A stretch of 39,417 nt of DNA from Chitinophaga pinensis (lineage in GTDB: Bacteria > Bacteroidota > Bacteroidia > 2-12-FULL-35-15): contig CAMCYR010000027.1 of NCBI GenBank assembly GCA_945885475.1, positions 1 to 39,417 on the forward strand. Reading direction: 5' to 3'. The translations under genes were made by a program, and so were the position numbers. Under the pieces are notes generated by a model. It was given only the letters and a program-made list of their open reading frames with translations. It made no database searches and was not told where the DNA came from. Shown here one piece after another: positions 17,536-33,380 of this stretch (position 1 is its first letter; every line of letters begins with the position of its first letter).

Positions 17536-18987
17536 ATGGCAAACGAGATTTTAGAAGAGCAAATTAGCGGGGAATATAAGTACGGATTTGTTACCGATAT
17601 TGAAGCAGATAGCGCTCCAAAAGGGTTGAATGAAGATATCATCCGTTTTATTTCAAAGAAAAAGAATGAGCCGGAATGGATGTTGGAATACCGGATGAAA
17701 GCATTCCGTTATTGGCTAACATTGGAAGAGCCACACTGGGCGCACGTTTCGTATCAAAAGCCCGACTTTCAGGATATTATTTATTACTCCGCGCCCAAAC
17801 CAAAAGTACAATTGAATAGTTTGGATGAAGTGGATCCCGAATTATTAAAAACATTCGAAAAGCTTGGAATTTCAATAGAAGAACAAAAACGGCTAAGTGG
17901 TGTTGAAAGTCGTATTGCTGTTGATATTGTGATGGACAGTGTTTCTGTTAAAACAACTTTCAAGGAAACATTATCTGAAAAGGGAATTGTTTTTTGTTCA
18001 TTCGGTGAAGCTGTTCAGGAGCATCCCGAATTGATAAAAAAATATATGGGATCTGTTGTTCCCTATACAGATAATTTTTATGCCGCATTGAATTCAGCCG
18101 TTTTTACGGATGGTTCATTTTGTTATATCCCAAAAGGCGTTCGCTGCCCGATGGAACTTTCAACTTATTTCAGAATAAATGCTTCTGGTACTGGTCAGTT
18201 CGAACGTACACTGATTATCGCTGATGACGATGCGTACGTGAGTTATCTCGAAGGATGTACGGCTCCGATGAGGGATGAAAATCAATTGCATGCAGCGGTG
18301 GTAGAAATAGTAACACACAAAAATGCAGAAGTAAAATACAGTACCGTTCAAAACTGGTATCCTGGAGATAAAAATGGCAAAGGCGGAATATTTAACTTTG
18401 TTACTAAGCGTGGAATTTGTTTGGAAGATAATTCAAAGATTTCATGGACACAGGTAGAAACTGGATCTGCAGTTACTTGGAAATACCCATCTGTTATTTT
18501 AAAAGGAGACAATTCCGTTGGTGAATTTTATTCTGTAGCTGTAACGAATAATTATCAGCAAGCAGATACGGGAACAAAAATGATGCATCTTGGGAAAAAT
18601 ACCAGAAGCACAATTATTTCAAAAGGTATTTCGGCAGGCTTTAGCAATAATAGTTACAGAGGATTGGTGCGAATCGCAAAAGGAGCGAGCAATGCGCGTA
18701 ACTTTTCGCAATGCGATAGTTTGTTGATGGGAGACAAATGTGGCGCACATACGTTTCCATACATCGAAATAAAAGATAAGTCGGCTATCGTAGAACATGA
18801 GGCTACTACTTCAAAAATTGGTGAAGATCAATTGTTTTATTGTAAATCACGGGGTATCGATAATGAGAAAGCCATCGGTTTGATCGTTAACGGATATTGC
18901 AAGGAAGTATTAAATAAATTACCAATGGAATTTGCTGTTGAAGCACAAAAATTATTAGCAGTATCGCTTGAAGGATCAGTAGGATAA
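17536..18987 (+). CDS. sufB: Fe-S cluster assembly scaffold SufB
   Basis: 483 residues, a standard SufB. After an N-terminal helical part with E-P-E-W-M-L-E-Y-R (53-61), the long beta-helix core contains [32 protein letters not shown], and near the C-terminus the [18 protein letters not shown] block holding the proposed cluster cysteine. [12 protein letters not shown] and S-R-G-I-D follow. SufB is the scaffold on which clusters form within SufB-C2-D. In most genomes sufC follows directly; here 478 bases with a broken S23 gene intervene. Confidence 0.98.
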
Positions 18988-18993
18988 AAGTTC

Positions 18994-19005
18994 AAAGTTT
19001 AAAGT
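18994..19005 (+). repeat. Left 12-bp inverted repeat of the S23 element
   Basis: AAAGTTTAAAGT at 18994-19005 is the exact reverse complement of ACTTTAAACTTT at 19433-19444. It begins six bases after the sufB stop codon and overlaps the first base of the S23 frame's GTG. Confidence 0.6.
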
Positions 19006-19439
19006 GAAAATAGATCTGAGCAAAATAGAAAGATTCGAAGATTTAAAAGTTTGGCAAAAGTCGAGGGAAATGAATCTTAAAATCTATAAGTTATCTAAAC
19101 AAAGGAACTTTTACTAAGGATTTTGGATTAAGAGATCAAATAAGAAGAGCAAGTGTTTCGATTTTGGCGAACATTGCTGAAGGGTTTGAAAGAAATGGAA
19201 ATAAAGAATTTGGACAGTTTTTATCAATAGCAAAAGCTTCAGCAGGACAAGCTAGAACGCAATTATATATTGCAAAAGATTTGGAATATATAAATGAAGA
19301 AGAATTTTCAGAAACTGTAAGTGGCTTGTTGGAAATAAGTAAAATGATTAATGGATTAATGAGTTATTTTAAAACCACAGAAATAAAAGGAAGTAAGTTT
19401 ATGGAAGATGTCATGTCGTATGGAGAATCTCAACTTTAA
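19004..19439 (+). pseudogene. Frameshifted four-helix-bundle protein (S23 / 23S rRNA intervening-sequence family) inserted between sufB and sufC
   Basis: From GTG 19004 the frame encodes [19 protein letters not shown] and runs into a stop at 19115. In another frame the protein continues from [17 protein letters not shown] with A-N-I-A-E-G-F-E-R and on to 19439. Removing one T from the TTTT run at 19109-19112 joins both parts into a normal S23 protein of about 144 residues. Either the gene is inactivated or the run is a sequencing error. Family members are small helical bundle proteins encoded in 23S rRNA intervening sequences of Leptospira and elsewhere; a related fold is Avd of diversity-generating retroelements. 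Their role is unclear. The gene lies exactly between 12-bp inverted repeats inside the suf operon, so it looks acquired. Confidence 0.85.
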
Positions 19440-19444
19440 ACTTT
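19433..19444 (-). repeat. Right 12-bp inverted repeat of the S23 element
   Basis: ACTTTAAACTTT at 19433-19444 is complementary to 18994-19005. A further partial copy, AAACTTTAAAC, follows at 19452-19462, just before sufC. In RNA the two ends could pair and loop out the whole S23 region. Confidence 0.6.
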
Positions 19445-19465
19445 CTAAATTAAACTTTAAACCTT

Positions 19466-20218
19466 ATGTTGTCAATTAAAAATTTACATGCCTCAATAGA
19501 TGGCAAAGAAATATTAAGAGGAATAAATCTCGAAATCAAAGCTGGAGAAATTCATGCGATTATGGGACCGAATGGTTCCGGCAAAAGTACTTTGTCTGCA
19601 GTACTTGCGGGGCGGGCAGAATATGAAGTAACCGAAGGTGAAGTAATCTTCAATGGGAAAAATCTATTGGAATTATCTCCTGAAGATAGAGCCAGAGAAG
19701 GTGTTTTTCTTGCATTCCAGTATCCTGTAGAAATTCCGGGTGTGAGCAATATTAATTTTTTGAAAACAGCGTTGAACGAAATTCGTGCCTATAAAGGATT
19801 GGGTCCGATAGAAGCAAAAGATTTTCTTGCATTGGTAAAGGAAAAACAAAAGTTAGTTGAGTTAGATGGTAAACTTGCAAATCGTTCTGTGAATGAAGGA
19901 TTTAGCGGTGGGGAGAAAAAAAGAAATGAGATTTTCCAAATGGCAATGTTGGAACCCCAATTAGCCATCCTTGATGAAACAGATAGCGGTTTGGATATTG
20001 ATGCCCTTAGAATTGTTGCAGGCGGAGTAAATAAATTAAAGTCGAAAGACAATGCAACGGTTGTGATCACACATTATCAGAGATTGTTAGATTATATTGT
20101 TCCTGATGTCGTTCATGTTTTGTATAAAGGTAAAATCGTAAAATCAGGTCCGAAAGAATTGGCCTTGGAATTAGAGGAAAAAGGGTATGATTTTATTAAA
20201 GATGAAATAGGAGCATAA
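19466..20218 (+). CDS. sufC: Fe-S cluster assembly ATPase SufC
   Basis: 250 residues of a soluble ABC ATPase. The Walker A is G-P-N-G-S-G-K-S-T (34-42), the Q-loop lies in F-L-A-F-Q-Y-P-V-E-I-P-G-V, the signature is F-S-G-G-E-K-K-R-N-E, and Walker B is L-A-I-L-D-E-T-D-S-G-L-D-I-D with the E-T-D variant typical of SufC. The H-loop is V-I-T-H-Y-Q-R. SufC binds SufB and SufD and drives the complex's conformational change. It is 2 bases upstream of sufD. The ATG at 19466 follows the A/T-rich right end of the S23 element, so its leader has been shaped by that insertion. Confidence 0.98.
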   Translation: MLSIKNLHASIDGKEILRGINLEIKAGEIHAIMGPNGSGKSTLSAVLAGRAEYEVTEGEVIFNGKNLLELSPEDRAREGVFLAFQYPVEIPGVSNINFLKTALNEIRAYKGLGPIEAKDFLALVKEKQKLVELDGKLANRSVNEGFSGGEKKRNEIFQMAMLEPQLAILDETDSGLDIDALRIVAGGVNKLKSKDNATVVITHYQRLLDYIVPDVVHVLYKGKIVKSGPKELALELEEKGYDFIKDEIGA

Positions 20219-31316: not shown

Positions 31317-33380
31317 TTATTTATTCGTTCTGATATCAGCTTCATTAATAGGGCGAAAGGCTGTTCTTCTGTTCTTCTGATGTTCTTCCTCCGTTGTAGC
31401 TTTCAAGATAAGCAATTTGCTTTCACCATATCCTTGAGGTAATAATCGTTGAGGTGCAATTCCTTTTGAAATTAAATAGTCTACACATGACTTCGCTCTC
31501 TCTTCTGATAATTTTAAATTGTATTTATCACTTCCGCGTTCATCGGTATGAGAATTAATTTCTACTGTTAGGTTGTTGTTCAAATTCAAGAAGTCTGTTA
31601 AGTCATCCAGTATTTTTTTAGATGCAGGACGCAAGGTCGCTTTATTCAAATCGTACTCGATTCCCGGAATTACAATGTCTCCGGAAGGAATTGGTGATAA
31701 GAAGAAATCTTTTATTAAATGAGCAGATTCGGTCAATCCCATTGTTGTTACATTCCCTGCATCACCAAAAAATTTATTTTTTTGCGCTTTTAAATATAAT
31801 TCCATGCCTTCATCCAAAGCTGTAAAATAATTTCCATCTGCATCTGTAAATAAATAAAATGGCTCTCTATCACCACGGATATCTTTTATGGTAATCATGG
31901 AGTTTGCAATAACTAAGTTGGTTGCAGCATTATAAACGGTTCCTTTTAAGTCAAATATCAAAGGATCTTTTTCAATAGCATATATTTTCAAACAAGCACC
32001 ACCTGAACAATCTTTGCAGTCTTCTCTGTCCGAAGTAAGGAATCCGTTTCTTTGACTACGTTCTAAGACAAAATAAGCATCGTCTTTACTGGAGTTGAAA
32101 GGAGAACCTAAATTTTTTGGTGATGACCATAATGAGTCACTGTTGTATGATGATTTAAAAATATCTAATCCGCCAAATCCAGGATGGCCATTTGAACTAA
32201 AATATAAAGTAGACGTATAATAATGAAAGAATGGTGTTACTTCATCTTCAGATGTGTTAAACAATTTACCCATATTAATTGGTGCACCTGTTGGTCTACT
32301 TTCGTCATCCAAATTTACATACCACAGATCCATTTTCCCTAAACCACCCGGACGGTTAGAAGAGAAATATAAAATACTTCCATCAGGCGAAAGTGATGGA
32401 TGCATTGTTTTGTATCCTGCAAGGTTAACTTGGTCGTTTAATTTTTCTGCTCCTAACCATCTATCATTCATATTTTTTGAAAGATAAATTGCACACTCAT
32501 TTTTATCTGTAGTTGACCAACGAGTGAAAAAATAATTACTTCTATCTAGTGTTAAAAATCCTGCTCCTTCATGCATTTCTGTATTTGCCGGTCCAGAAAC
32601 CTTGCTTAATTCAGTCCAGCCACTGTTTGTTTTTTTTACAGTATATATATCACAAACATATTTGGGATCTTGTTTTTTAGGATCAAGAACGGTATTGCCA
32701 TTACGAGCAGTTGTAAACTGCACAGTACTTGCATCACCATAATAGTTTACAGCAAAACTTGCTGTTCCAGCGTTAAATAAAGAATCTTTTATTTTGGTAA
32801 CGATAACTCCTGATTTGTTATTTGCGGTATCCGCTGCTAAATAACATCCAGCAATTTTTAATTTAGCCATCTTGAACATAGCAGAATCTTTTCCTTCTGC
32901 ATCTGTCATCACCGATTCAAAATTAAAAGCAGCACCGGGATAACGTTGGTTTTTCATTAAAGCATCACCTAGCCAAAATTTTTCATACGGATAAGCAGTT
33001 GGTTTAGCATCAACCGATTTTTTAAACCAGATTTCTGCATTTGCATAATCACTGTTCAAGCGATAACAATCCGCAATTTGATGAATTGCATATTGCTCTG
33101 TTGGATCAGAAGTAGTATGTTTTGATGTATCGACTGCAACTTTTGTGCTGTCCTTATTTTTTTTAGGAGGAGCGATGTATGGTTTAGTTTCGTATGGACG
33201 GGTAATGTCAACAGAAGTTCCTTTGTCAACTACCTTTAAATAGAAAGAAACAGCCGTTTTATAATCTCCGTTTTTATACGCAGCATCAGCATATTCAATC
33301 CATTCTCTTTTGCTTTGAGCAAAAGTTGATACAGTTACAAACAGAAATAATAGTGCAAAAATATTTTTCGTACTTCTCAT
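31317..33380 (-). CDS. PorE-like OmpA-family protein (TPR, PD40 propeller, CNA-like, OmpA domains)
   Basis: 687 residues from ATG 33380 (M-R-S-T-K-N-I-F-A-L-L-F-L-F-V-T-V). An ATG at 33398 overlaps the PorP gene and spoils the signal peptide. Order: signal peptide; TPR helices (about 25-165; A-D-A-A-Y-K-N-G-D-Y-K-T-A, D-Y-A-N-A-E-I-W-F); PD40/WD40-like propeller (about 200-460) with L-S-P-D-G-S-I-L-Y-F-S-S-N-R-P-G-G and L-Y-F-S-S-N-G-H-P-G-F-G-G-L-D-I; a carboxypeptidase-regulatory-like domain (about 475-560); and a C-terminal OmpA peptidoglycan-binding domain (about 570-687; E-I-N-S-H-T-D-E-R-G-S-D-K-Y-N-L-K-L-S). This is the architecture of Porphyromonas PorE, which ties the T9SS to peptidoglycan. 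Bacteroidota carry many paralogues beside PorP/SprF genes, so the exact role is open. Confidence 0.9.
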   Translation of the reverse strand: MRSTKNIFALLFLFVTVSTFAQSKREWIEYADAAYKNGDYKTAVSFYLKVVDKGTSVDITRPYETKPYIAPPKKNKDSTKVAVDTSKHTTSDPTEQYAIHQIADCYRLNSDYANAEIWFKKSVDAKPTAYPYEKFWLGDALMKNQRYPGAAFNFESVMTDAEGKDSAMFKMAKLKIAGCYLAADTANNKSGVIVTKIKDSLFNAGTASFAVNYYGDASTVQFTTARNGNTVLDPKKQDPKYVCDIYTVKKTNSGWTELSKVSGPANTEMHEGAGFLTLDRSNYFFTRWSTTDKNECAIYLSKNMNDRWLGAEKLNDQVNLAGYKTMHPSLSPDGSILYFSSNRPGGLGKMDLWYVNLDDESRPTGAPINMGKLFNTSEDEVTPFFHYYTSTLYFSSNGHPGFGGLDIFKSSYNSDSLWSSPKNLGSPFNSSKDDAYFVLERSQRNGFLTSDREDCKDCSGGACLKIYAIEKDPLIFDLKGTVYNAATNLVIANSMITIKDIRGDREPFYLFTDADGNYFTALDEGMELYLKAQKNKFFGDAGNVTTMGLTESAHLIKDFFLSPIPSGDIVIPGIEYDLNKATLRPASKKILDDLTDFLNLNNNLTVEINSHTDERGSDKYNLKLSEERAKSCVDYLISKGIAPQRLLPQGYGESKLLILKATTEEEHQKNRRTAFRPINEADIRTNK

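Follow-up and report, generated by a model that had tools for sequence, protein, structure and literature searches.

The window, that is, the whole stretch of DNA analysed (39,417 nucleotides), carries an insertion between sufB (17536–18987, forward strand; an ORF whose product is 90–99% identical to SufB in 34 genomes) and its downstream neighbour sufC (19466–20218, forward strand). The sufB stop codon, a TAA ending at 18987, directly abuts a left arm of imperfect 7-bp repeats, AAGTTCAAAGTTTAAAGTG (18988–19006, forward strand), and a right arm of inverted 7-bp repeats, CAACTTTAAACTTTCTAAATTAAACTTTAAACCTT (19431–19465, forward strand), runs up to the sufC start codon, an ATG at 19466. The filled gap thus begins at one codon and ends at the other; where the site is filled, the native spacer can no longer be made out, and no target-site duplication was seen by eye at sufB–sufC. 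Between the arms lies a pseudogene of the four-helix-bundle protein S23 (19016–19439, forward strand, stop codon TAA at 19437–19439), identified by the profiles PF05635 and TIGR02436 and by comparison with genome G031. Profile searches placed it well within the family, at 103 bits against PF05635 (cut-off 33.8) and 100.6 bits against TIGR02436 (cut-off 24, E = 5e-29). The 12-bp inverted-repeat ends named in a preliminary description were recovered as AAAGTTTAAAGT at 18994–19005 and its reverse complement at 19433–19444. S23 is the only gene inside the element, which encodes no transposase or recombinase.

The S23 gene is present as first described, but it is not intact. A CTG stands in place of ATG at 19016–19018, and one extra A in 19097–19099 causes a frameshift when compared to G031, the nearest relative of the window copy (SufB 99% identical), which carries the same element. 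The G031 gene retains its ATG and lacks the extra A, but has an in-frame TAG of its own; judged from the sequences, both copies appear to be dying, through different mutations. As the left arm in G031 is one heptad longer, the element in the window has probably decayed. A present role for it in processing the suf mRNA, suggested earlier, is doubtful given a dead S23 and a shortened left arm.

Taken by itself, the window repeat is marginal: its score was reached in 54 of 2000 dinucleotide shuffles (2.7%), and the genome contains 23 occurrences of the AAAGTTTAAAGT 12-mer versus 11 of the reversed control. The G031 repeat was equalled in 7 of 2000 shuffles. What lifts the window repeat above chance is the family to which it belongs, with arms in 88% of 134 S23 copies versus 1.8–8% in three controls. 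Elsewhere in the window, a perfect 17-bp inverted repeat, CATCACCAAAAAATTTA, at 31759–31776 and 32108–32125 encloses a 332-bp loop free of S23.

Empty sufB–sufC sites, which the preliminary description had proposed to seek, were found within the same genus as gaps of 11–23 bp (L059, L060, L064, L067, L074, L075 and L082), while S23 fills the gap in L056, L057, L062, L078 and L080, and L084 holds an apparent remnant of an S23 element with different heptads. Other sufB–sufC gaps contain inserts devoid of S23, several having short-period inverted ends; those of L058, L061, L072 and L079 carry repeats of the CACTAAG, CACGGATT/ATCTGTG and CTTTGCG types, some with inverted ends. Additionally, S23 elements 74% and 68% identical to that of the window lie directly before sufB in L068 and L077, respectively, so that two positions of the suf operon have received insertions.

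S23 genes and their arms across the genus

S23 genes were detected in 35 of 36 same-genus genomes, at 1–19 copies each. The PF05635 profile recovered seven of them in the host genome, together with one Avd. For six of these, the neighbouring genes were read by eye from sequence as parts of one pathway or complex: sufB–sufC, nuoH–nuoI, nuoC–nuoD, a fadB–fadA-like pair, two CoA-transferase subunits, and serA with its neighbour. The eighth match (L008 1501–2241, G000:C82) is the Avd-type protein, followed by the apparent start of a diversity-generating reverse transcriptase that is ended by the contig edge.

Arms were scored by aligning the upstream flank of each gene to the reverse complement of its downstream flank, and copies scoring at least 13 were taken as armed. 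The search for inverted ends around S23 genes of related genomes, advised in the preliminary description, gave a median arm score of 18.5 for the 134 same-genus copies, with 88% at or above the threshold. Pairing arms from different copies lowered the score to 8.5 (5% armed), and only 1.8% of dinucleotide shuffles and 8% of other ORFs were armed. Self-similarity of arms was 0.50 at lag 7 and 0.46 at lag 14, and approximately 0.28 at other lags except lag 8 (0.40) and neighbouring values. Arm sequences differ among copies, and a match exists only between the two arms of the same copy. In a full element, a single S23 gene is enclosed by two inverted arms built from imperfect 7-bp repeats, ~20–50 bp per arm, and the whole occupies an inter-gene gap that usually falls within an operon. 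Its left arm begins at the stop codon of the upstream gene or overlaps it, and its right arm ends a few bases short of the following ATG or tRNA.

A scan of 400 kb conducted independently of S23 returned three heptad inverted repeats, two of which were S23 elements; the third was a hairpin without S23 but with suf-type arms, in a gap of L041 reading as paaB–paaC. Inverted TTCTCGACTCCGCTCGA-type repeat clusters lacking both a heptad period and S23 occur at G000:C2 94421–95021 and C5 32010–32477 (L190, L199), and AACTTTAAACTTT-type tandem repeats near base 800 of L044 and L045 apparently fall within aminoacyl-tRNA synthetase coding regions (gene identity by eye), where they look like tolerated in-frame inserts.

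S23 itself is under purifying selection (median dN/dS 0.082), and 9 of the 134 copies are broken. Residues Q33, S40, N44, E47 and E70 are conserved at 95–99% among 256 proteins. The solved relatives 2gsc and 2rld contain five chains each, and 2gsc is given as a five-fold assembly in a reference cited by PMC10053308.

Comparison of copies at different sites indicated that arm type goes with S23 lineage: it was shared in 34% of pairs with S23 identity of at least 70%, and in 0–2% of pairs below 55%, and 9 of 29 lineages were found at two to six sites, with 3 of 51 sites holding two lineages. At the same site, the within-copy arm score stayed at ~19–21 at every S23 divergence, while the left–left score between orthologs dropped from 29 to 9 as divergence grew. 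The two arms of one copy are thus evolving together while orthologous arms diverge. With the register chosen by alignment, arm match was 0.86 in register versus 0.62 when shifted by seven, and the match reached bases that break the 7-bp period, 67% of which were matched. The left arm was richer in G than in C in 193 elements and poorer in 17, which could be explained by its role as the S23 leader. Arm match showed no significant dependence on S23 intactness, with nine broken copies available, and arm heptads were not clearly enriched away from S23 in the host genome.

Elements in other phyla, tRNA operons and 23S rRNA

Among 85 copies from 79 named loci of other phyla, 69% were armed compared to 4% of mixed pairs. 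Eight genomes reached via loci of Acidobacteria, Omnitrophica, Gracilibacteria, Anaerolineales, Desulfosarcina and proteobacteria yielded 19 armed copies out of 20. In the class of G037, itself reached via a proteobacterial locus, S23 was present in 39 of 185 sampled genomes, and 25 of 27 copies were armed.

Most surveyed S23 copies sit between protein genes or beside tRNAs. In several tRNA operons the right arm stops 4–9 bp ahead of the tRNA, and in L327 the element is flanked by a tRNA on either side, at distances of 8 and 4 bp; some of these cases may represent one ancestral insertion. L325, from the G037-class sample, contains an S23 copy inside a 23S rRNA gene (RF02541, 277–2799), flanked by heptad-type arms, CATCAGAAGACAGAAAATAGATGACAGAG and, reverse-complemented, CATCAGAAGACAGAAGACAGAAGACTGAG. 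Together with the family-wide arms, this copy upholds the likeness to 23S rRNA intervening sequences drawn in the preliminary description.

Interpretation and comparison with known systems

We consider it somewhat more likely than not that 18988–19465 belongs, in decayed form, to a wide class of selfish and probably mobile spacer-filling elements, whose arms would be kept by DNA-level copying and whose S23 would recognise its own arms. On the best reading, this class includes the S23-bearing intervening sequences of rRNA as one of its cases. Under the proposed mechanism, the S23 pentamer would bind the heptad arms of its own copy, and this recognition would help the element to spread or persist. 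The arms could be held identical by copying at the DNA level, through template switching or hairpin-mediated conversion, rather than by RNA pairing, and insertions would survive where genes are spared, at gene boundaries. This interpretation draws on comparative sequence evidence, namely the anatomy, the empty sites, lineage-specific arms at several sites, joint arm evolution, purifying selection on S23 and the 23S rRNA copy.

S23 elements show the inverted terminal repeats, the vacant sites in related genomes and the multiple locations expected of a mobile element; neither a transposase inside the element nor a reverse transcriptase or Y1 helper common to all carriers was found. Both reverse transcriptase and Y1 transposase were tried as required helpers and rejected, each being absent from many S23-bearing genomes, and no reverse transcriptase scored over threshold in G000. 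Vertical inheritance seems to account for many of the copies that share a site, and no sign of a very recent jump emerged: among the S23 pairs listed at different sites, even the closest were at most 86% identical. A bolder version, which we hold to be possible though unlikely, regards S23 plus heptad arms as an autonomous mobile class, in which the pentamer, with its near-invariant Q33, S40, N44, E47 and E70, would drive both insertion at gene boundaries and arm-to-arm copying, S23-bearing rRNA intervening sequences being merely the rRNA insertions of that class.

A different account, to which we give a little less credence still, holds that the element serves RNA processing in the manner of 23S rRNA: its arms would pair in the transcript and RNase III would cut the stem, splitting the mRNA or removing the element, with pairing maintained by selection on RNA and possibly serving host regulation. 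S23 and both neighbours do share one strand in 125 of the 134 genus copies, all from Bacteroidota, versus 49.8% of host gene triplets; some copies occupy tRNA operons or, in one instance, a 23S rRNA gene, and the Coxiella 23S element is cut in its stem by RNase III (PMC4990558). Selection on RNA pairing would favour G-U, however, and arm mismatches across 221 elements comprised 176 G-U versus 207 A-C, with no G-U excess in any set. This better fits DNA-level copying or recognition, and it speaks against RNA-pairing selection as the cause of arm match; the idea that the two ends are retained for the stem they could form in RNA is not supported. In addition, many proteobacterial copies lack two co-directional flanking ORFs (a count that took ORFs and not tRNAs), and much of the window stem has been lost.

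The arms might instead belong to a resident, non-mobile hairpin spacer, with inverted repeats arising from slippage and template switching in operon gaps and S23 either captured between them or a host gene for which they act as control sites. S23-less short-period hairpins in the sufB–sufC gap and in the L041 gap would agree with such an origin, as would joint arm evolution in the absence of recent jumps. We regard it as improbable, since the blind 400-kb scan turned up just three inverted repeats of the heptad type, S23 being present in two, arm type tracks S23 lineage across sites, and the anatomy is the same across phyla. A reading in which an ordinary S23 gene lies in AT-rich sequence that pairs by chance has support from the window copy alone, through its shuffle score and the frequency of its 12-mer; at the family level it is refuted by the contrast between armed copies and controls, and the G+C-richer arms of other phyla, which match as well, also speak against it, leaving a negligible likelihood.

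The class of selfish spacer-filling elements that we favour resembles the S23-bearing 23S rRNA intervening sequences of Coxiella and Leptospira in having one S23 gene between complementary ends, a plan that the window retains as a broken S23 and 12-bp ends that are marginal alone. Tandem heptamers precede S23 in the Coxiella element, in strain-variable copy number, and the origin, mobility and S23 role of rRNA intervening sequences are described as unresolved, with mobility being an old proposal (PMC4990558). The window element differs in lying in a protein operon, outside the 23S rRNA gene, and the arm mismatches of surveyed elements bear no sign of RNA pairing.

Avd of diversity-generating retroelements has been related to PF05635 in published work (PMC10053308), and the host Avd matches the S23 profile, but it lacks Q33, S40 and E47 kept by S23 in the alignment. 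Unlike in diversity-generating retroelements, no reverse transcriptase, template or variable repeats stood beside S23 copies whose neighbours were read, and the window neighbours are suf genes.

Intergenic tandem 7-mers of unknown origin have been reported from Beggiatoaceae, cyanobacteria and Xanthomonas (PMC4679880, PMC4692102), two papers in which no mention of S23, intervening sequences or four-helix proteins was found; the elements described here are a possible source for some of these bacterial heptamer repeats, a link that is putative. The literature searched, which did not extend to most subscription papers and preprints, yielded no account of S23 elements with heptad arms in operons or tRNA clusters. 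S23 with copy-specific heptad arms now constitutes a general, testable anatomy, present across several phyla both in operons and in tRNA clusters, which predicts the arm each S23 should bind, and the joint evolution of two distant arms without an RNA signature is an unusual phenomenon in itself that can be studied directly.

MITEs and insertion sequences share with S23 elements the inverted ends, multiple sites, empty sites and gene-less derivatives. They differ in that S23 elements lack a transposase, and no target-site duplication was identified by eye at sufB–sufC; moreover, the terminal repeats of MITEs and insertion sequences are fixed, whereas S23 ends vary between copies, match within a copy and change together. 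We file the window element as a variant, previously undescribed in the literature searched, of the S23-bearing 23S rRNA intervening sequence kind.
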